22,640 bases of DNA, taken from IMG/VR virus record IMGVR_UViG_3300028569_000180, positions 1 to 22,640 of that record; one strand, 5' to 3'. Made by a program: the position numbers and the translations under genes. The notes beneath the pieces were generated by a model. That model did no database searches, was not told the origin of the DNA, and saw only the letters and a program-made list of their open reading frames with translations. Shown here in pieces: positions 4,492 to 22,640 of the stretch. Within the stretch, counting starts at the first letter, position 1, and each line of letters begins with the position of its first letter. Source of the stretch: a virus.

Positions 4492-5414
4492 TGGCGCGGA
4501 GCAACCCGGTGGTGCTCGCCAAGGCGACGGGCGGCAGCCCGAAGCAGCCGACGGCCTTCGCGCGCCTCGTCGCCGTGGTCTCCGGCGCGATCGGGCGCAT
4601 CAAGGATCTGGAGGCGGCGGTTCGCAATGCGCCGGTGCCCAGAGATGGCATGGGCGTCGCAAGAGGTCTCGTCGATGGCGCCGGCAACCTGGTGCTCGTG
4701 CGCACTGATGGCGAGCTGATCAACTGCGGTCCCATCGATCTCTCGGCGATGCAGGCGATGATCGATGCCGCCGTCGCGAAGCGGCCTCCAGCAGAGCCGG
4801 GGACGAGTGTGACGCTCGACGAGGTGAGGCCGCTGATCGCCCAGGGCATTGCCGCCGCGGTTGCCGACCTGCCGCCGCCGGAGCCGGGCAAGCCAGGCAC
4901 CAGCGTGACGGTGGAGGATGTGACCCCCCTGTTGTCGCAGATGGTCGATGCTGCGGTGGGCAAGATTCCCCCGGCCAGGGATGGTGTCGGCATTGCCGAC
5001 GTGGTGATCACCGCTGAAGGACGCTGGGCAGTGAGCCTTGCAGATGGCCGGCGGCTTGATGCCGGGCCGGTACCGGTACCGCAGCCAGGTGCGCCCGGGC
5101 GCTCGCTCGATGGCGGGTTGGTCGATGCGGACGGCAACCTGGTGCTGGCGTTCAGCGACGGCTCCACCGTTTCGGTTGGCCGCGTGACGGCCGAGCCGGG
5201 CGTCAGCATTGCTGGCGGGATGCTCGACGAAAACGGCGTGCTGACGCTGACGCTGACCGACACCAGCACGGTGACCGTGCGCGGCTCCCTGGCGGTGCCC
5301 AAGGCCGTGGTCGGGTCGCCGACCGCCGAGGGGGTACCGGAAGCCCTGGCAGGCTTTGCGCTCCGAACCATCGACCTCAATGGCGAGACCGTCACGGTCC
5401 TCTGCCGAAGCTAG
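4491..5414 (+). CDS. Repeat-rich phage protein between portal and protease, function unknown
   Basis: 307 residues. The ATG at 4491 shares a base with the portal stop; a GTG one codon earlier is an alternative start. Two repeat classes are visible. Class A (residues ~104-133 and ~137-165, period 33) reads GTSVT-x-DEV-x-PLI, then AAAV and a Pro-rich turn, resembling short helices joined by collagen-like PG linkers. Class B (about 55-80, 165-192, 203-230, 237-265) reads G-x(5)-LVD-x-DGNLVL-x-SDG-x-V, a beta-hairpin-like unit common in phage tail and appendage proteins. Its location within the head module is odd for an appendage protein. It could be a capsid-decorating fibre or a head-vertex spike. 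No enzymatic motif is seen and no function is claimed. Confidence 0.8.
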   Translation: MARSNPVVLAKATGGSPKQPTAFARLVAVVSGAIGRIKDLEAAVRNAPVPRDGMGVARGLVDGAGNLVLVRTDGELINCGPIDLSAMQAMIDAAVAKRPPAEPGTSVTLDEVRPLIAQGIAAAVADLPPPEPGKPGTSVTVEDVTPLLSQMVDAAVGKIPPARDGVGIADVVITAEGRWAVSLADGRRLDAGPVPVPQPGAPGRSLDGGLVDADGNLVLAFSDGSTVSVGRVTAEPGVSIAGGMLDENGVLTLTLTDTSTVTVRGSLAVPKAVVGSPTAEGVPEALAGFALRTIDLNGETVTVLCRS

Positions 5415-5424
5415 GAAGTCCGAC

Positions 5425-6111
5425 ATGGCCCCGATCAACAACCGCGCTGGTGCGAAAACGCCGGCGGGCTACCGCATGCTCAACCGCGGCAACGACCACG
5501 CCGAGATCTACCTCTACGGCATCATCGGCCAGGACTGGTATGGCGATGGCGTCACCGCCAAGCAGTTCGCCGACGATCTCAAGGGCCTGGGCAAGGTCAA
5601 GGCCATCGACTGCCGCATCAATTCGGAAGGCGGCGACGTGTTCGCGGGCAAGGCGATGTACACGCTGCTCGCCGAGCACGAGGCGACGGTGAAGGTGCAT
5701 ATCGACGGCCTCGCGGCCTCGGCCGCCAGCTTCATCGCCATGGCCGGCGACGAAATCCGCATCGCCGAGGGCGCGTTCGTGATGATCCACAACGCCTGGA
5801 CGTTCGCGGCCGGTGGCGCCGACGACATGCGCCGCACGGCGACGCTGCTTGACACCGTCAACGAGACCATCCGCGAAGTCTATGTGGCGCGGACCAAGAA
5901 CACCGCCAAGGCGGTCAAGGACTGGATGGACGATGAGACCTGGTTCGCCGGCAAGGAAGCCGTGAGCGCAGGCTTTGCCGACAAGCTGGTCGAGAACCTC
6001 AAGGTCGCCGCCTGTCTCTCGCATGGCGACCGTTTCAAGAACCTGCCGTCGGCGTTGAAGCCACGGCGACTGGCCGCGCTGACGCGGCTCGAGGCGCTGC
6101 GGCGCCGCTGA
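5425..6111 (+). CDS. ClpP-like head maturation protease
   Basis: 228 residues from ATG 5425, preceded by AGGAAG (5413-5418) at a 6-nt spacing. An in-frame upstream ATG lies inside the preceding gene and is rejected. The ClpP/crotonase fold is evident: strand and turn of the type INSEGGDVFAGKAMY (65-79); the nucleophile region GLAASAAS with S99 as the likely catalytic serine; then MIHNAW with H122; and AGFADKLVE with D186. This triad order (S-H-D) is that of phage S14/S49-type prohead proteases, which remove the capsid scaffold domain before DNA packaging. The basic C-terminal tail (about 207-228, many R/K/L) may target it into the prohead. It lies directly before the capsid gene. Confidence 0.92.
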   Translation: MAPINNRAGAKTPAGYRMLNRGNDHAEIYLYGIIGQDWYGDGVTAKQFADDLKGLGKVKAIDCRINSEGGDVFAGKAMYTLLAEHEATVKVHIDGLAASAASFIAMAGDEIRIAEGAFVMIHNAWTFAAGGADDMRRTATLLDTVNETIREVYVARTKNTAKAVKDWMDDETWFAGKEAVSAGFADKLVENLKVAACLSHGDRFKNLPSALKPRRLAALTRLEALRRR

Positions 6112-6182
6112 AGCTTTCCGGCGCAAGCCGGGTAGAGCCCCGAACCCCGCGCCCTGGGCCCGCGCAACCTGGAGCAATCCCA

Positions 6183-7631
6183 ATGAAACTGCAGTCCACT
6201 GCGCGGGCCCTCAGTGGCCTGTCGATCCTTGCAGCCGCATCGCTGGCTTCGACCGCGGCGCTCGAGCACGAGTTCCCGATCCTGATGGGACCCTCGGTTG
6301 CCGACCGGCTGGAAGCCGCCGAGGCCGAATTCTCAGATCTCGAGGCGGAATCGACCGCCATCATCGACTCGGTCGAAGAGGGCGATGACCTGTCCGACGA
6401 ACAGGTCGCCGAGATCACTGAGATCGGCAACAAGATGGAAAAGGTCAAGGCGCGCATCGCCGCGCTCAAGCCGCTGGTGGCGCAGGGGCAGGGTCGGCGC
6501 GCTCCGCCCGAGCCGAAGAACGAAAACCGGCAGGACCCGAACAATCGCCGCGTCCCGGCCGAGCCGCGCAACCAGCCCGGCACGGGCGGCTTCAAGAACT
6601 TCGGCGAGTTCGCGCAGTGCGTCAAAGCCTCGGCCCTCAAGGACGACGGGGCCACACAGCGGCTGCTGAACGCCACCAGCACCTATAGCAGCGAGGCCAT
6701 CGGCGCTGATGGTGGGTTTGCCATCCCGCCGGACTTCAAGGCGCGTATTGTAGACAAGGTTCTGGGCGAGGAAGAGCTGATCAGCCGCTGCGACAAGATG
6801 GAGACGGGTTCGAATTCCGTTTCCATTCCCAAGGACGAAACCACTCCGTGGCAGACGACCGGCGGGGTGCAGGCCTACTGGGAAAGCGAAGGGTCTGCGA
6901 TGACAGCGTCGAAGGTGGCGCTCGAACCCATGAATGCGCGCCTTCACAAGCTGACGGCTTTGGTGCCGGTTACCGAAGAGCTGCTCGATGATGCCCCTCT
7001 TCTGGCGGGGCACTTGATGAAGAAGGCGCCGGAGAAGATCAACTACAAGGTCTCGAACGCGATCTTTGACGGCACAGGTGTCGGCCAGCCGCTCGGCATT
7101 CTCCGTTCACCGGCGTTAGTGGTCGTCGGCAAGGAGGGCTCGCAAGCTGCTGACACTCTCTTGTCGATGAATGTTTTCAAGATGTGGTCGCGGATGTACG
7201 CACCGTGCCGCAAGAACGCCATCTGGATGATCAACCAGGATCTCGAACCGCAGCTCTTGGGAATGACGATTCCGGTCAAGAACGTCGCCGGCACTGAAAA
7301 TGTTGGTGGAGGACCGGCCTACATTCCCCCCGGTGGCATCAACGCTTCGCCGTTTGGGTTGCTGCTCGGCAAGCCGGTCATTCCTCACGAGGTGTGCAAG
7401 ACTGCCGGCGACGTCGGCGACATCGTCTTTGCCGACTTCTCCAAGTACATGGCGGCCACCAAGGCCGGCGGCATCCGCACCGACGTATCGATCCACCTCT
7501 ATTTCGACCAGGACGTGACGGCCTTCAAGTTCGTGTTCCGCGTCGCTGGCGAGCCGTGGTGGAGCAGCCCGATCGCCCGGGCCAACGGCTCGAACACTCT
7601 CTCCGCCTTCGTGGCGCTCGAAGCCCGCTAA
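6183..7631 (+). CDS. HK97-fold major capsid protein with N-terminal scaffold (delta) domain
   Basis: 482 residues; GGAG at 6171-6174 lies 8 nt before the ATG. Layout: residues 1-34 are a hydrophobic, signal-like stretch; ~37-100 is a charged heptad-like coiled coil (the delta/scaffold domain removed by the protease); ~103-135 is a Pro/Arg/Asn-rich linker with probable cleavage sites; ~168 onward is the HK97 fold. The fold begins at a motif of the type SSEAIGADGGFAIPPDF and continues through VPVTEELLDD and IFDGTGVGQPLGIL to the C terminus. This fits self-scaffolding HK97-type capsids, where the upstream ClpP-like enzyme matures the prohead. The N-terminal hydrophobic segment before the delta domain is unusual. 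A strong hairpin follows the stop. Confidence 0.93.
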   Translation: MKLQSTARALSGLSILAAASLASTAALEHEFPILMGPSVADRLEAAEAEFSDLEAESTAIIDSVEEGDDLSDEQVAEITEIGNKMEKVKARIAALKPLVAQGQGRRAPPEPKNENRQDPNNRRVPAEPRNQPGTGGFKNFGEFAQCVKASALKDDGATQRLLNATSTYSSEAIGADGGFAIPPDFKARIVDKVLGEEELISRCDKMETGSNSVSIPKDETTPWQTTGGVQAYWESEGSAMTASKVALEPMNARLHKLTALVPVTEELLDDAPLLAGHLMKKAPEKINYKVSNAIFDGTGVGQPLGILRSPALVVVGKEGSQAADTLLSMNVFKMWSRMYAPCRKNAIWMINQDLEPQLLGMTIPVKNVAGTENVGGGPAYIPPGGINASPFGLLLGKPVIPHEVCKTAGDVGDIVFADFSKYMAATKAGGIRTDVSIHLYFDQDVTAFKFVFRVAGEPWWSSPIARANGSNTLSAFVALEAR

Positions 7632-13888: not shown

Positions 13889-16205
13889 CGAAACGCAGAT
13901 CACAGAGCTGATCGTCGATGCCCGGGGTGCGACCGCGGGGTCGGCCGAGTATGTGCGCGCCATGGCGGCCGCCCAGCGGGCCGTGGACCAGCTCTACGAT
14001 CGCGACCAGCGTCTGGCCGAGGCGCAGCGGCGCGGGGTAGGGGTTATGCAGGCTTCAGCCGGTGGCATTGCCCGCACGGCGGCCGCCTGGGACCGGCTGC
14101 GCTCTTCAATCGACCCCGTGGCGGCGGCCGAGATCCGGGCGCAGCGCGAGATCGAACGGGCGGTGGTCAGCGCCGACAATGCCGTCAAGCGGGGTCTCGC
14201 CACCGAAGTGCAGGCCGCTGCCGTAATCGAGAGGTTGCGGCAGCAGCAGGTCATCGACCTGCAGCGGGTACGTGATGCGCAACAGCAGGTGACGGATTCG
14301 CGCGTTGCCGACACGCATGTTCGCAACGACAACGCTGCTGTCCGGTCTGAACGGGCGGGCCGGTTCGAAACCGGCAATATCGCGGCGCAGTTTCAGGACG
14401 TCGCCGTTACTGCAGCAATGGGCATGAACCCGCTGACGATCGGCTTGCAGCAGGGTACCCAGCTCAGCGCCGTCATCGGCCCTATGGGCGCCGCCGGCGC
14501 GGTGCGAGCGCTGGGTGCAGCCTTTCTTGCGCTGATCAGTCCCGTGTCGCTCTTCACGATCGGCGCTGTGGCGGCAGTCGCCGCGATTATTCAGCTCGTG
14601 GGCGCGATCACCAACGAAACACCCAAGGCTGAGGAGGCGCTAGCGACTCATCTTGAGCTAATCGAGCAGCTGACGCGTGGGTATGACAGGGCCCGGGAGG
14701 CGGCGACCGGCGCGCTGGAGCGCGCCCAGATGCTACCGCGCGGTGTGGTCCTCTCCGACCTTGCCAAAAGTCTAAGCGAGCAGGCCGAAGCGGCCGGCAA
14801 GCTGCAGGAAAAGATCGACGCTACTAACAAGTCGCTGCAGGAAAGCGCCGATTTCGTTCGGGACATGCGCAAGGTCGGCGCCTCGCTGGGCGGCGACGAT
14901 ACCGAGCTTGCTAAGGTGCAGCAGCAGGTTGAGCTGATCCGCGATCTGGGTCTCTCGGCCGCCAGCACGGTTCCCGACATAGAAGCCGCCATGCAGGCGG
15001 CGCGCGAGCTCTACAATACCAGCGACGATCCGGCGCTGCGCGATATGGCCAACGATGCCTTCACGCTGGGCCAGAACCTGCTGGCCGTCGAGGCCCAGGC
15101 TTATGCGTCTCGGGCCGCGATCTCGGCGCTGCAGAACGAGGCGGCGTTCGACGATGCCATCGCCGACGCCGAGCGGTTCGCCGCCGCGATCGGCAAGATC
15201 AGCGGCCTGCGGCCGGAGCTGCGCTCGCCGCGCGAACAGGCAGTTGCGGCGCTGAACGAGGCCAAAGCCAGCGGCGGCTCCATCGAACGTCTCGCGGCGG
15301 AAAAGACGTTTGCCAGCGTGATCTCTGACATGGACGAAGCGGACCGCCGGCGCAAGGCAGAGGAGGGTGCGCGGGGCGCCGCTTCGGCCGCGAAGCGTGA
15401 GTCTCCGGCCGACAAATTCGGCGGCGCCGTGGCGCAGATGGAACAGGAGATCGCCGGCATCGAAGCGCGCACGGCCGCGCTCGGGCAGGCCACCTTCGAA
15501 ACCGAGCGGGCTCGCGCCAGCACAGAACTGTTCAATGCGGCCAAAGAAGCCGAACTGGCGATCGACGCGCCGCTCGAGGCGCAGATCGACGCCCTCGCGA
15601 CGCGCTACGCCGAGGTGCAGCTGGCGGCCGAGGGCGCGCAGCTGACGATGGCCAACCGCACGCCGTTCGAGGAACTGGGGTCCGAACTGAGGGGACTCCA
15701 CGAGCTGCTGGCGGCCGGGGCGATTAGCTGGGAGACCTATGCTCGGGCAGTGGGCAATGCCACGGCCAATGCCGCGGGCACCGCCATCGGCGCGCTCGCC
15801 AATCTCTCCTCGAGCCTGTCGTCGGCGTTCGAGGACAACAAGGAACTGGCGGTGGCGACCGCCGTGCTCAAGGGCGCGGAATCGGTGGCCTCGGCGTATG
15901 CGGCAGGCAATGCCGTGTTCGGGCCGATCGGCGGCGCGGCGTTCGCGGCTGTGGCGGCCCTCGCGGCGGCCAAGAATGTCTCGGACGTCATGTCGGTCAG
16001 CCGGACGTCCAAAAGCATGGCGGGCGGCGGCGGGGCAGGGGCCACGCCGGCGATCCCGGCGGCGGCCGCAGCGCCGCAGAGCAAGTATGTCGGCGTGAAC
16101 CTCTACGGCGACAGCTACAAGCGCGAGACGGTGGGCGGGTTGTTCGAACGGCTCAGCGACGAGCTCGACGACCGCGGCGTCAAGCTCAGCGTCAGCTACA
16201 AGTAG
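13881..16205 (+). CDS. Tail tape measure protein
   Basis: 774 residues from ATG 13881, which overlaps the gpGT stop; the open frame continues upstream but inside the chaperone gene. The N-terminal ~150 residues are coiled-coil-like (ARGATAGSAEYVRAMAAAQRA and on). The segment FQDVAVTAAMGMNPLTIGLQQGTQLSAVIG (from about residue 170) is characteristic of lambda gpH-type tape measures. A hydrophobic stretch to about residue 250 follows, probably inserted in the host membrane on DNA entry. Long Ala/Glu/Arg helices fill about 260-600, and the Gly/Ala-rich C terminus (about 640-774) would bind the tail tip. At roughly 0.15 nm per residue it predicts a tail near 115 nm, an inference from the family rule. 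Confidence 0.9.
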   Translation: MADETQITELIVDARGATAGSAEYVRAMAAAQRAVDQLYDRDQRLAEAQRRGVGVMQASAGGIARTAAAWDRLRSSIDPVAAAEIRAQREIERAVVSADNAVKRGLATEVQAAAVIERLRQQQVIDLQRVRDAQQQVTDSRVADTHVRNDNAAVRSERAGRFETGNIAAQFQDVAVTAAMGMNPLTIGLQQGTQLSAVIGPMGAAGAVRALGAAFLALISPVSLFTIGAVAAVAAIIQLVGAITNETPKAEEALATHLELIEQLTRGYDRAREAATGALERAQMLPRGVVLSDLAKSLSEQAEAAGKLQEKIDATNKSLQESADFVRDMRKVGASLGGDDTELAKVQQQVELIRDLGLSAASTVPDIEAAMQAARELYNTSDDPALRDMANDAFTLGQNLLAVEAQAYASRAAISALQNEAAFDDAIADAERFAAAIGKISGLRPELRSPREQAVAALNEAKASGGSIERLAAEKTFASVISDMDEADRRRKAEEGARGAASAAKRESPADKFGGAVAQMEQEIAGIEARTAALGQATFETERARASTELFNAAKEAELAIDAPLEAQIDALATRYAEVQLAAEGAQLTMANRTPFEELGSELRGLHELLAAGAISWETYARAVGNATANAAGTAIGALANLSSSLSSAFEDNKELAVATAVLKGAESVASAYAAGNAVFGPIGGAAFAAVAALAAAKNVSDVMSVSRTSKSMAGGGGAGATPAIPAAAAAPQSKYVGVNLYGDSYKRETVGGLFERLSDELDDRGVKLSVSYK

Positions 16206-17030: not shown

Positions 17031-19576
17031 GCATCCGGCAGGCGGTGCTCTATGCCGAACTCGATATCGACTGGTGCCAGCTCCGCTTTGGCGAGACCAC
17101 TGATGCCGGCACCTGCACGGCGACGATCGGCGAAGCCAGTCCGGCCAAATGCTTCAACACCATTGCCACCTGTCCAGTGCGCGAGGTGTTCGACCCGGCG
17201 CCGGTGACGCTGCGCTTTGCCGAGCCGCAGGACTATCTGAGCAAATCGATCCGGGCGATCCAGTCGATCGTCTCAGTCGACTTCACGCACGCCCGGCTCG
17301 AACCGGGCGAGTCGCTGGGGACCCGGGGCACCGTCCGGATCCAGTTCAGGGAACATCCGTATCCCGACACCGGCCCGGGCTTTGACAAGTATGTCACCGA
17401 GCGGCCCTACAGCGCCTATGGGCAGGGCAGCTTCTGGAGCAAGTTCCGGGCCCGGCAGCCCTTCCTCCGCAGCGAGCCGCTGCGGCTGATCATGGGCTTT
17501 GCCGACCAGGCACTGGCCGAGATGGAAACCCGGCATTATTTCGTCGACAGTTTCGACGGGCCGACGCCGGACGGCCTCTACACGCTGATCGCCAAGGATC
17601 CGCTGAAATATCTCGACGGTGACCGGGCCAATGCGCCGCGGCCAAACAAGGGGTATCTCAGCGCCGACATCGCCGCGGACGCGACCGGGGCAACGCTGGC
17701 GCCTGCCGGCATTGGCGACGAGGACTATGAAGCCTCCGGGCTGCTCTCGATCGGCGGCAAGGAGACCATCGAGTTCACGCGGTCGGGCGATACGCTGAGC
17801 TTTGTCGAGCGCGGCCTCTACGGCACCGAGCCGCAGGCGCACAAGGGCGAGGACCGGGTGCAGGTCGGCCTGCTGGTCGATGCCAAGAACCCGGCCGAAA
17901 TCGTCGATCTGCTGACCACAGGCTACGTGCCGGGCTGGGACGCGGATTGGAACCCAGTTGACGACTGGGAAGACGAAGTCACCGAGTACCTGCGGCGCGA
18001 ATATACACGCTTCATTCCCGAGCCGACGCCGGTCAACCAGCTCATCGACGAGCTGATCGTCCAGGCAGGGCTCTGTATCGGCTGGGACGATCTCCGCGCC
18101 GAAGTGTTTCTGCAGGTGCTGCGGCAGATCCCCACCGACGCGGCGGTCTACGATGACCGCATCAACGTTGTGGATACGCTCAGGATCCGCGAGCAGCAGT
18201 CGCGGCGCGTCTCGGAAGTGTGGATGCGCTATGCGCAGCGCAATCCGCTCGAAGGGCAGACGACAGACAATTTCCCCGGCTTCCAGGTCGGCGCGGACCC
18301 CGAAAACGAGGAGAACTACGGCCAGCCGGCCATTCGCAAGGTCTGGGGCACCTGGTTGCCGCTTGGCGCCAGCTCGGCCGCCAACCGTTGCATCGACCTG
18401 ATCATCGGCCGCTACGGCAAGCCGCCGCGCGAGTTTGCGTGGAGCCTTTTCCGCGGCACGCAGGAGCCGCCGGAAATCGGCGGCGGCTACCAGCTGGCGG
18501 CGCGGGGGTTGCAGGACGCGTCGGGTGCCGCAGAGCTGGTGCCGGTGCAGATCGTCGAGATCAAGCCGCTCAAGCATGGCTGGGACGTGGTGGCAATCGA
18601 GATGCGCTACACCAAGCGCGCCTCCGACGACGTGGCCAACAAGTCGATCTCGTTCAACGTCAACCAGAACGGTATCAACCTGCGGACGGTGCATGACACG
18701 CTGTTTCCCGATCCGGTGGACGGCGACACGATCAATGCGTTCATCCCCGAAGGCGTCATCCTGGGCGCAGCGGCGCTCGGGGCGCCAGCCTTCACCATTG
18801 GCAGCTGGCCGACGCTGAGCTTTACCGGCACGCGCACGGACGGCAGCGCCACGATCCTCGTGGACGACACATCAGAGTTCGCTGTGGGCATGCCGGTGGG
18901 TGGCCCCGGCCTCGTGGACTATCCGCGAATCGTCTCGATCGACCCCGACACCTCGATCACGCTCGATGACGAGGCGCAGGCCGATGGCGCGACGACGCTG
19001 GTGCTCTACACCATCATCATCAACCTCTATGCCCGCGGCCGTGGGCAGGGACCAGGCGGTCGCGGGGGGCGCGGCGCAAGCTGGAACCCGACGCAGAACC
19101 CGAGTAACGGCGAGGCCGGCGGTACGGCGCTCTACCTGCGCTATCCGATCAATCTCTTCCTCGACGTCGGTGCGGCGGAGATTTGGGCTGGCGGCAGCGG
19201 CGGCGGCGGCGCGGACGTGCTCAATCTCGACCAGGCGCGGGGTGGTGGGGGCGGTGGGGGCGCCGGCATTCCCGGTGGACCCGGGGGCGATGGACCCGGC
19301 AATGCGCAGGATGGCGGCACCGGCAGCCAGGATGCCGCCGGCCCTGGCGGCAATTCCTACGCCAGCTTCAACTGGTGGACCGGACCGAATTCGTCGGGCG
19401 TCTACGGCGGACCGGGCGGCCCGCCCGGAGGGGTCGGTAGCGCCGGTGGACATCACGGCGGCAATGCCGACGAACAGCAGCCCGGCCAGGGCGGTCCGCA
19501 GGGCGCCGCGATCGATGGCGCCAGCTACGCCAAAAAGACCGGCAGCGGCGACATCCGCGGCACGCAGATCAACTGA
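17027..19576 (+). CDS. Tail tip hub protein with glycine-rich C-terminal domain
   Basis: 849 residues beginning in an ATGA overlap. The first ~640 residues look like a central tail hub (gp27/gpJ-type): repeated beta domains, a RQPFLRSEPLRLIMGF stretch, VEDLLTTGYV-like spacing segments, TPVNQLIDELIVQAGLCIGWDD with the following FLQVLRQI (about 340-370), and LPLGASSAANRCIDLIIGRYG (about 445-465). From about residue 668 the composition switches to Gly-rich sequence (GRGQGPGGRGGRG, GGGGGGGAG, GGPGGPPGG) interrupted by short aromatic or aliphatic strands. That pattern resembles polyglycine-sandwich adhesins such as T-even gp38, which bind the host receptor. The receptor-binding role is inferred from composition and position only. 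Confidence 0.8.
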   Translation: MSIRQAVLYAELDIDWCQLRFGETTDAGTCTATIGEASPAKCFNTIATCPVREVFDPAPVTLRFAEPQDYLSKSIRAIQSIVSVDFTHARLEPGESLGTRGTVRIQFREHPYPDTGPGFDKYVTERPYSAYGQGSFWSKFRARQPFLRSEPLRLIMGFADQALAEMETRHYFVDSFDGPTPDGLYTLIAKDPLKYLDGDRANAPRPNKGYLSADIAADATGATLAPAGIGDEDYEASGLLSIGGKETIEFTRSGDTLSFVERGLYGTEPQAHKGEDRVQVGLLVDAKNPAEIVDLLTTGYVPGWDADWNPVDDWEDEVTEYLRREYTRFIPEPTPVNQLIDELIVQAGLCIGWDDLRAEVFLQVLRQIPTDAAVYDDRINVVDTLRIREQQSRRVSEVWMRYAQRNPLEGQTTDNFPGFQVGADPENEENYGQPAIRKVWGTWLPLGASSAANRCIDLIIGRYGKPPREFAWSLFRGTQEPPEIGGGYQLAARGLQDASGAAELVPVQIVEIKPLKHGWDVVAIEMRYTKRASDDVANKSISFNVNQNGINLRTVHDTLFPDPVDGDTINAFIPEGVILGAAALGAPAFTIGSWPTLSFTGTRTDGSATILVDDTSEFAVGMPVGGPGLVDYPRIVSIDPDTSITLDDEAQADGATTLVLYTIIINLYARGRGQGPGGRGGRGASWNPTQNPSNGEAGGTALYLRYPINLFLDVGAAEIWAGGSGGGGADVLNLDQARGGGGGGGAGIPGGPGGDGPGNAQDGGTGSQDAAGPGGNSYASFNWWTGPNSSGVYGGPGGPPGGVGSAGGHHGGNADEQQPGQGGPQGAAIDGASYAKKTGSGDIRGTQIN

Positions 19577-19588
19577 GGACATCGGCTC

Positions 19589-20590
19589 ATGCCTTACGCC
19601 CCGTGGCGGCAGTACATCACCGATGCTGCCGGCAACATCATCACCAATGCGCAGGTGCGGGTCCGGCAGGAGCGCCAGGGCCTGCCGCCGGCGCAGATCT
19701 ATGCCGACTCCGAGCTGACGCAGACCAAGACCAACCCGTTCCAAGCGACGGATGGGCTGGCCGAGATCTACGCCCGCGGCGGCTTCTATCGCGTCGATAT
19801 TGTCGCGCCGGGTCTGAGCATGCCGCCGCTGCGGTTCGTGGCGATCGGCAACGCCCAGGCTGTCGACACCGACCAGATCGGCATCGGCTCGAACACTGAC
19901 AAGCAGGTGGCCAACCTCACCGCCCGGGCGGTCTATGACGATGAAGAGGAAGACTTCTCGGTCCTCATCTCCGATATTGGCGACGGGCGGGCCGGCATCT
20001 CCAGCAAGCTGTCCGGCGACACGGCGGACTGGAGCGAAATCGCCATCATCACGGGCAAGACCGGCACCGGAACGGGGCTGAGCTTCGACGTTACGGTCGC
20101 GGACCTTACCGAGCGTGCCCTCTACGACGATGAGGCAGAGGGCTATCGTGCGTTGGTCTCCAACGCCGGCAACGGGCGATCGGCCGTCTACGTCAAGCTC
20201 TCGGGCGACTCCGCCGACTGGAGCGACCCGAATTATCTCGACGGCGGGCTCTTCGACCTGACGATCCAGGTCAACGACTTCCCGTACTCGGGCGAGCAGG
20301 TGCTCAACCACATCTTCCGCGAGCCGATCAACTTCGAGGCAGGATTCACCGGAAGTGTCGGCAAGGCGGAGGGCTTCTCCACCGGGGAGGCGATCTTCCT
20401 GTTCTACAAGAACGGGGTCGAGATCGGCAGCGTGACCTTCGACAACTCGGTCGACCCGACTTTCTCGCTGCCGGGCGGGGCTTCCTTCGACACGGGCGAC
20501 ATCGCCAAACTGATCGCGCCCAGTCCGCAGGACGCCACCCTGTTCAACGTGACGATCACCCTGGCCGGCAAGCGTCTGCCGGCCTCCTAA
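19589..20590 (+). CDS. Tail fibre/appendage protein with tandem ~45-residue repeats
   Basis: 333 residues; the GAGGA overlapping the previous stop lies 12 nt before the ATG. N-terminal ~90 residues form an Ig/prealbumin-like beta domain (YITDAAGNIITNAQVRVRQ, then GLAEIYARGGFYRVDI), probably the attachment module to the tail tip. Two related repeats follow at about 107-149 and 169-213: LT-x-RA-x-YDDE, then an LVS/LIS-x-x-G-x-GR segment and a KLSGD-x-ADWS motif. These are common in phage and prophage fibre proteins. The C-terminal ~110 residues carry a distinct beta domain (FLFYKNGVEIGSVTFD, ATLFNVTITLAG) that could be the tip. No enzymatic motif is seen. Confidence 0.75.
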   Translation: MPYAPWRQYITDAAGNIITNAQVRVRQERQGLPPAQIYADSELTQTKTNPFQATDGLAEIYARGGFYRVDIVAPGLSMPPLRFVAIGNAQAVDTDQIGIGSNTDKQVANLTARAVYDDEEEDFSVLISDIGDGRAGISSKLSGDTADWSEIAIITGKTGTGTGLSFDVTVADLTERALYDDEAEGYRALVSNAGNGRSAVYVKLSGDSADWSDPNYLDGGLFDLTIQVNDFPYSGEQVLNHIFREPINFEAGFTGSVGKAEGFSTGEAIFLFYKNGVEIGSVTFDNSVDPTFSLPGGASFDTGDIAKLIAPSPQDATLFNVTITLAGKRLPAS

Positions 20591-20610: not shown

Positions 20611-20853
20611 ATGCCCAAGAAAACCACACCAGCGACGGTGGGGCACCGCTTTGCCGTGTCCGGCCCCGCCGACTTTCTCGTCGGCACCAAGCTCACCGCC
20701 AAGTGGCTGCCGGGCGGCAGCTATCGCGTCACCGAAGAGAACTGCGTCCGCGTCGGCGAACTCATCGCCGAAGGCATCGCCACTGACCTCGGCGTCGGCC
20801 GCAGCGGCGGTCCTGCCGGCGTCGCGACTACCGGCTTAAGGAGCCCCGCATGA
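20611..20853 (+). CDS. Small tail-region protein, unknown function
   Basis: 80 residues, start supported by AGAGGA about 9 nt upstream. The sequence FAVSGPADFLVGTKLTAKWLPGGSYRVTEENCVRVGELIAEGIA looks like a compact beta-plus-helix protein of a type often found among phage fibre genes. Its C-terminal Gly/Ala tail is probably disordered. I do not recognise a family. The stop overlaps the next gene by ATGA, so the two are probably coupled and may be small subunits of the same appendage. Confidence 0.65.
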   Translation: MPKKTTPATVGHRFAVSGPADFLVGTKLTAKWLPGGSYRVTEENCVRVGELIAEGIATDLGVGRSGGPAGVATTGLRSPA

Positions 20854-21227
20854 GTATCACCCACGTAACGGCCGTCCGGTCCGCGCTCGCCGACCTGATC
20901 GATAGCCTCATCAACACCGGCGGCGGCACCGCAGTGCTCCGGCTGCGCGACAGCACCACGACGATCGTGGACTTCAGCCTCGCCAACCCGGCCTTCGGCG
21001 CCGCCTCGAGCGGCGTCATCACCCTGGCCGGCGTTCCGATCGCGGCTGTTGCCGCAGCTGCCGGCGATGTCGATAATTTTCAGATTCTCGACCGGGGCGG
21101 AGCGCTCGTCCTGTCGGGTTCCGTCACTGGCGCTGGCGGAGGCGGCGATATCGAAGTCAGCAACATCTCCATCGCCAGCGGGCAGGACTGCTCGCTCGAA
21201 AGTCTGACCTACACCGCTTCGGCCTGA
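20850..21227 (+). CDS. Small phage appendage-associated protein
   Basis: 125 residues beginning in ATGA. The layout is one N-terminal helix (TAVRSALADLIDSLINTGGG), a beta region (TAVLRLRDSTTTIVDFSLANPAFGAASSGVITLAG), and a C-terminal beta domain with a GAGGGGDIEVSN motif and GQDCSLESLTYTA. Proteins with this organisation (helix, NPAFG-AASGVIT, VLSG-VTGAGGGGDIE) are frequent next to fibre genes in tailed phages; their role is unknown to me. It lies directly before the long repeat protein, whose ribosome-binding site begins 13 nt after this stop. Confidence 0.7.
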   Translation: MSITHVTAVRSALADLIDSLINTGGGTAVLRLRDSTTTIVDFSLANPAFGAASSGVITLAGVPIAAVAAAAGDVDNFQILDRGGALVLSGSVTGAGGGGDIEVSNISIASGQDCSLESLTYTASA

Positions 21228-21251
21228 TTCCGGGGCGACTGAGGAGCGCCC

Positions 21252-22640
21252 ATGGCCGGCCCCATCCGCATCAAGCTCTCGGGCGACCAGCAGAGCGGCA
21301 ATGACGTTCTGCTGCTCTCGGGAGACATGCAGAGCGGGGCCGACGCCGAGGCGACCTCGATCCGTGCCGCCTCCGGCACGCTGCAGGCCGGTGACGCAAC
21401 ACTTTCGGGTGCCGTCACCGTCTCCGATGCCACCATCTATACCAGCGGCACGCTGGCCGCTGGCACGGCCGAGCTCTCGGCCGACGTGGCGGTTCTGGTC
21501 ACGGCAGCGGCGACACTGGTTGCCGACGCCGCTTCGATCGACGGCGAAATCGCCGCCATCATCGCGGCGAGCGGAGGGCTGGAAGCCGAAGCTGCAGAGA
21601 TCGCGGGGACGGTGTCGGCTGTCGTTGCGGCGTCCGGCTCCCTGGACGCGGAGCCGGCGGACCTCGCCGGCGCAGTCACCTCCGCCTCCGCCTTCACCGT
21701 CAACGGCGACCTGGTTGCCGAAGAGGCGACTCTGGCCGGCGCCGTCGAAACCTCGATCTCTGCCAGTGGCGGGCTCGAGGCGGAGCCGGCCGAGATCAGC
21801 GCCGCGGCGGAGATAGCCAACGAGGCGGCCGGCCCCATCCGCATCAAGCTCTCGGGCGACCAGCAGAGCGGCAATGACGTTCTGCTGCTCTCGGGAGACA
21901 TGCAGAGCGGGGCCGACGCCGAGGCGACCTCGATCCGTGCCGCCTCCGGCACGCTGCAGGCCGGTGACGCAACACTTTCGGGTGCCGTCACCGTCTCCGA
22001 TGCCACCATCTATACCAGCGGCACGCTGGCCGCTGGCACGGCCGAGCTCTCGGCCGACGTGGCGGTTCTGGTCACGGCAGCGGCGACACTGGTTGCCGAC
22101 GCCGCTTCGATCGACGGCGAAATCGCCGCCATCATCGCGGCGAGCGGAGGGCTGGAAGCCGAAGCTGCAGAGATCGCGGGGACGGTGTCGGCTGTCGTTG
22201 CGGCGTCCGGCTCCCTGGACGCGGAGCCGGCGGACCTCGCCGGCGCAGTCACCTCCGCCTCCGCCTTCACCGTCAACGGCGACCTGGTTGCCGAAGAGGC
22301 GACTCTGGCCGGCGCCGTCGAAACCTCGATCTCTGCCAGTGGCGGGCTCGAGGCGGAGCCGGCCGAGATCAGCGCCGCGGCGGAGATAGCCAACGAGGCG
22401 GCCGGGGACCTGACGGCCGAGGCGGCGACGCTCGCCGGGGCGGGCTCCGTGGTGGTGGCCGTCGAGGGAGCACTCGAAGCGGCCGACGCCTCGCTCTCCG
22501 GCGCGGCAACCGCCGGGTTCGCGGTCACCGCCAGCCTTGAAGCCGAGATCGCCGAACTGTCCGGCGCCGTCGATATCGACATCGCGGCCACCGGCGGGCT
22601 GCAGGCCGAAGACGCCATTCTGGGCGGCGATATCGAGGTC
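21252..22640 (+). CDS. Long alanine-rich repeat protein (fibre-like), 3' end beyond window
   Basis: At least 463 residues, open to the window edge; GAGGAG (21241-21246) lies 5 nt before the ATG. It contains no Cys, few aromatics and many Ala/Gly/Glu. After a 40-residue start (PIRIKLSGDQQSGNDVLLLSG...) come ~21-residue units of the form G-x-L-x-A-E-x-A-x-L-x-G followed by a beta-prone Ser/Thr/Ile/Val segment, typical of solenoid or elongated fibre domains. Codons 2-191 are duplicated perfectly in tandem, so the start region reappears inside the protein at about residue 192. After the second copy at least four more diverged units follow. Position at the end of the fibre block suggests an elongated tail or side fibre; that is inference. 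Confidence 0.75.
   Translation, partial: MAGPIRIKLSGDQQSGNDVLLLSGDMQSGADAEATSIRAASGTLQAGDATLSGAVTVSDATIYTSGTLAAGTAELSADVAVLVTAAATLVADAASIDGEIAAIIAASGGLEAEAAEIAGTVSAVVAASGSLDAEPADLAGAVTSASAFTVNGDLVAEEATLAGAVETSISASGGLEAEPAEISAAAEIANEAAGPIRIKLSGDQQSGNDVLLLSGDMQSGADAEATSIRAASGTLQAGDATLSGAVTVSDATIYTSGTLAAGTAELSADVAVLVTAAATLVADAASIDGEIAAIIAASGGLEAEAAEIAGTVSAVVAASGSLDAEPADLAGAVTSASAFTVNGDLVAEEATLAGAVETSISASGGLEAEPAEISAAAEIANEAAGDLTAEAATLAGAGSVVVAVEGALEAADASLSGAATAGFAVTASLEAEIAELSGAVDIDIAATGGLQAEDAILGGDIEV
21254..22405 (+). repeat. Perfect tandem duplication, 573-bp period
   Basis: Copy 1 (21254-21832) and copy 2 (21827-22405) are identical over 579 nt by eye, with a 6-nt overlap (GGCCGG) at the shared edge. 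The period of 573 nt is 191 codons, so the reading frame is kept. The base before copy 1 is T and before copy 2 is C; after the copies they diverge as C versus G. GGCCGG at both edges is a plausible microhomology for unequal recombination or replication slippage. An assembly duplication is the alternative. Confidence 0.9.

Follow-up and report, generated by a model that had tools for sequence, protein, structure and literature searches.

Phage EfV12-phi1 repeatedly acquired 1.8-kb in-frame tandem duplications in a putative tail-fibre gene while coevolving with Enterococcus faecium (PMC6365445). In one isolate, 1,021 long reads spanned the gene; 134 were without the duplication and 852 carried one (PMC6365445). 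The same study cites duplications in gp37 of phage T4 (Tetart et al. 1996). In crAssphage, tandem arrays of BACON domains grew by domain duplication (PMC6949934). On the copy number of tail-fibre repeats, our literature search returned nothing useful beyond PMC6365445 and PMC6949934.

Here we describe a comparable locus in the window, by which we mean the whole 22,640-bp stretch of DNA analysed, which is the full length of an IMG/VR metagenome contig. Going by its assembly, the window resembles EfV12-phi1 in having an in-frame tandem duplication of a block of a structural gene, the structural role being putative in the window, and copy number may vary in both. The EfV12-phi1 duplication lies within a putative long tail-fibre gene, was confirmed by long reads and was a response to host resistance, whereas that in the window is 573 bp long, lies at the N-terminal end of a putative structural gene and is read from an assembled contig. 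T4 reportedly widened its host range by duplicating a small adhesin domain, to go by the title of the T4 work; the window likewise duplicates a small segment of a gene, and the host-range effect is one reported for T4. The crAssphage BACON array is tail-associated, as the window's array probably is, and both have grown by duplication. The crAssphage units, however, are Ig-like domains that were duplicated singly and have long diverged, whereas those of the window are about 21 residues long and were copied nine at once.

A 573-bp block is duplicated in frame

The repeat gene begins with two identical copies of a 573-bp block (Table 1). Self-comparison of the window aligned positions 21254-21832 with 21827-22405, a run of 579 identical nucleotides at an offset of 573 with no mismatch. 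This run is the sole exact direct repeat of at least 40 nt in the window. When the window was simulated 30 times with a first-order Markov model, the longest exact repeat was 14-17 nt, and a maximum of 17 against 579 observed excludes chance. Tandem Repeats Finder did not report the 573-bp repeat because the longest period it handles is 500. The run exceeds the block by six nucleotides, the GGCCGG common to the edges at 21254, 21827 and 22400. Between the copies, identity is total out to these microhomology edges and gone past them.

The duplication keeps the reading frame. The block is 191 codons long, and residues 193-383 of the protein repeat residues 2-192. An AGGAG at 21242-21246 precedes the ATG (21252-21254), and the identical run starts on the last base of that codon. 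Copy 2 opens with the protein's N-terminal residues (AGPIRIKLSGDQQSG), now internal, and has neither the ATG nor the upstream AGGAG ribosome-binding site. The original prediction had described a 579-nt match free of differences, an in-frame tandem copy of 191 codons and GGCCGG at the copy edges, placing the repeat at 21254-22405, and all of this was borne out.

Table 1. Features of the repeat gene and its upstream neighbour, in window coordinates.
Feature	Positions	Strand	Basis and remarks
Upstream neighbour, 125 aa, phrog_3758-like (virion structural protein)	20850..21227	+	Match 1.5e-10
ORF of the ~21-residue-repeat protein, 463 codons in window	21252..22640	+	ORF listing, sequence; runs off record end
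GGCCGG, start of copy 1, within M1-A2-G3	21254..21259	+	
Copy 1 of the 573-bp block, residues 2-192	21254..21826	+	Self-comparison; nine units of 21, 18, 24, 21, 21, 21, 23, 21 and 21 residues
GGCCGG, copy 1/copy 2 junction	21827..21832	+	
Copy 2, identical to copy 1	21827..22399	+	Self-comparison
GGCCGG after copy 2, start of next unit (AGDLTAEAATLAG)	22400..22405	+	Codon phase as other sites
Further units of this type outside the duplication (four visible), last cut by contig end	22406..22640	+	

The duplication is recent relative to the units it contains

The protein is an array of short diverged units. These are 18-24 residues long (mode 21) and follow the form SGxLxAxxAxLxG, and the duplicated block comprises nine of them, whole, in its 191 residues. 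G+C content by codon position in the gene is 0.73/0.57/0.83, like that of neighbouring phage genes. A 639-codon frame on the minus strand was rejected as the coding frame, its values of 0.81/0.58/0.71 being unlike those of the neighbours.

Unit cores of 13 codons have a median pairwise nucleotide identity of 0.56 (range 0.41-0.74, n=55). Since the units share about 56% of their nucleotides and the two long copies differ at 0 of 573, the long duplication is recent relative to the units. The original prediction had likewise seen well-diverged 21-residue units inside each copy and a long copy much younger than they are.

The 333-aa gene upstream also holds an internal repeat (window 19968-20226), which is in frame and diverged. 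Its two parts lie 189 nt (63 codons) apart and share 73% of their nucleotides over 70 nt.

GGCCGG microhomology points to a possible route for the duplication

The gene contains seven GGCCGG sites (four in one-copy terms), every one in codon phase 2, and exchange between any two of them therefore keeps the frame. This agrees with the earlier expectation that a 191-codon unit could change in copy number without loss of frame. At 21827 and 22400 the hexamer encodes the Ala-Gly at a unit start; at 21254 it runs from the start codon into Ala2-Gly3. If breakpoint pairs were drawn at random within the repeat gene, only about 0.7% would be expected to show junction microhomology of at least 6 nt.

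We propose that one recent tandem duplication of the gene's first nine units produced the repeated 573-bp block. Template switching or unequal exchange would have joined two GGCCGG sites, one at the start codon and the other nine units downstream. With the hexamer marking a recurring motif in a single codon phase, such an event would have preserved both frame and unit register and made the protein nine units longer. Judged from the anatomy of the locus, exchange between GGCCGG sites nine units apart would account for the preserved frame and register as well as for the exact edges. Our best reading of the locus, and a fairly likely one, is that the gene for a probable tail protein underwent a recent duplication that was mediated by microhomology and preserved the register. 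We infer a genuine genomic event that left exactly two copies, and the extra units would lengthen a structure.

The repeat protein is probably tail-associated

Gene order suggests a structural role for the repeat protein. Tape-measure and tail-fibre-like genes lie upstream of the repeat gene, which makes a tail role likely and a fibre role possible, and we take the product to be probably a phage structural protein associated with the tail. It matched no tail-fibre profile and had no match among PHROGs. Matches to Pfam and NCBIfam all fell far under the cut-off and were taken as chance. The description "fibre-like" in the original prediction is a plausible guess from position and composition, and a fibre whose length is tuned by copy number is plausible as well.

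Structure prediction gave models of low confidence, with a mean pLDDT of 43 from the single sequence and 47 when relatives were included. In the latter, short beta-strands recur in each unit; these would suit a beta-solenoid or fibre shaft, and at such confidence the prediction is too weak to rely on. A Foldseek search with the same model returned nothing that passed 0.001. Phage tail fibres have a fibrous, beta-structured shaft that is usually trimeric, and they bind the receptor at their C-terminal end; the C-terminus of the repeat protein lies off the contig. Further upstream, the 849-aa tail-fibre-like protein has a glycine-rich end (window 19141-19353), within which the sister contig L078 breaks, at 19323.

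Similar repeat genes accompany the same neighbour in other phages

The gene itself was found only in the window. No other copy of it turned up when phage records were searched at the DNA and protein levels, when viral contigs and bacterial genomes were scanned for peptide patterns, or when viral contigs were scanned for a 24-nt DNA pattern. A genome scan with the neighbour gene returned two metagenome-assembled genomes only. The closest terminase matches are to Bradyrhizobium and Paracoccus phages, at 67-70% nucleotide identity. A relative by its portal gene (L007, 71% identical) had no such repeat gene in the parts read.

Similar genes occur beside relatives of the neighbour. In other phages, relatives of the phrog_3758-like neighbour adjoin similar repeat genes or lie a few kb from them. 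Directly downstream of the neighbour homologue, Vibrio phage 501E54-1 has a repeat gene of 583 aa, and Vibrio phages K354, K406 and K408 have one of 669 aa, with the gene order as in the window. Metagenome contigs L095, L100, L111, L112/L114 and L120 carry similar repeat genes near the homologue. In L092, which holds the neighbour gene's nearest relative, a shorter repeat segment occurs in a gene 0.5 kb further along, after which comes a tail-fibre-assembly-like gene. The repeat genes of the Vibrio phages and of contigs L095, L100, L111, L112 and L120 resemble that of the window in repeat length, in the motif SGxLxAxxAxLxG and in gene neighbourhood. The original prediction had looked to other phages for counts of the copy; similar 21-residue-repeat genes turned up there, and with the same gene nowhere among them there were no copies to count. 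Downstream of that neighbour, contigs L103, L097/L098, L133, L115 and L116/L117 have very large frames, 1,738-3,065 residues long, in which 21-residue repeats are combined with other sequence.

Kinship of the repeat genes rests largely on their neighbourhood. The repeat protein is 23-36% identical to its relatives. The true query scored 102 bits against them and shuffled queries at most 14.6, but the reversed query still scored 72 bits, so the similarity is partly one of periodicity and composition.

Relatives differ in length by whole units

Length differences among the relatives come in multiples of the repeat. The proteins of L111 (positions 5052-7619, 856 residues) and L112 (5409-8417, 1003 residues) share 89% of their residues at aligned positions. 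Just two gaps set them apart in length, one of exactly 63 and one of exactly 84 residues, or three and four units. Vibrio phages K354 and 501E54-1 differ by gaps of 21, 21, 20 and 21 aa, the placement of which is uncertain at 33% identity. L100 (11456-12838) has older, nested in-frame duplications, 86-88% identical, at offsets of 66, 132 and 255 nt. A recent, long and exact copy like that of the window was found in 0 of the 16 relatives' frames compared. L143 was considered as a shorter variant and rejected, being a broken contig identical to L111. Going by these sequences, length in the 21-residue-repeat group appears to change by whole units.

Genuine duplication or assembly artefact

The copy junction bears on whether the duplication is real. 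Words of 33-127 nt spanning it are unique. For a graph assembler to build a contig, the junction must occur in the reads. Reads across the copy junction were therefore needed, which favours a real DNA junction, though not a count of exactly two, and would hold for a chimeric library molecule as well. Against a genuine duplication we count the length of the exact repeat itself, since ordinary short reads do not reach 579 nt.

Sister contigs of the same phage stop short of the gene. Four metagenome contigs (L004, L005, L006 and L078; 3300027730, 3300027728, 3300028553 and 3300029268) are about 99.9% identical to the window, and they break off at window positions of about 4,957, 14,339, 14,931 and 19,323, all before the repeat gene. 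Many of their mismatches with the window are bunched at 14300-15040, partly at a contig's end, and this clustering suggests low-depth assembly around that region.

An artefact is unlikely, while deserving serious weight. The one-copy gene would then be real, and copy 2 would stem from one of two errors: a molecule made chimeric by PCR or by whole-genome amplification, or a graph loop that the assembler unrolled where a low-depth contig ends. The window's contig does terminate 235 nt beyond copy 2, no other contig of the phage spans the gene, and the mismatches near a sister contig's end hint at low depth. Amplification chimeras, moreover, typically use short microhomology too, and one would leave the same anatomy. 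An overlap of 6 nt, however, is far below what an assembler joins on, so that a junction-bearing molecule was needed. The junction is also in frame and in unit register (frame, though, is guaranteed by GGCCGG alone), and the same protein group changes length by whole units in separate contigs. We judge that the duplication is probably real.

Copy number may vary within the population. One, two, three or more copies would coexist, with two merely the number assembled and the variation in length selected by the host. We consider this rather improbable; it overlaps with a genuine duplication, of which it is a stronger form. The single EfV12-phi1 isolate was mixed for its duplication (PMC6365445), and the window's relatives vary by whole units, but the gene is present in one contig only. 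A still bolder version is very doubtful: the phase-locked Ala-Gly microhomology would constitute a contingency-type length system, in which frequent in-frame gain and loss of unit blocks gives variable-length virion appendages within one population.

Older copies held identical by recurrent exchange, whether homogenisation or gene conversion, are highly improbable: identical tandem copies would readily recombine and the remaining units of the array are old, but those adjoining units stayed diverged, and full identity that ends sharply at microhomology edges is more simply explained by a single recent event, which leaves no need for the homogenisation that the original prediction had entertained.

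Discussion

A recent duplication of this sort would be ordinary in kind. In-frame duplications in tail-fibre genes are already documented in EfV12-phi1 and T4. By analogy, the window may represent the same process as in EfV12-phi1, T4 and crAssphage, at a smaller scale.

If real, the locus is a snapshot of a repeat-built phage protein in the act of growing, by nine units in one step. Frame and register would both be kept, since the hexamer at the join encodes a motif of the unit. Taken with the gaps of 63 and 84 residues that separate L111 from L112, the locus suggests that whole-unit length change occurs in a little-described group of proteins. Short-read assembly easily collapses or breaks identical blocks of such size, and variation of this kind may therefore be under-reported.
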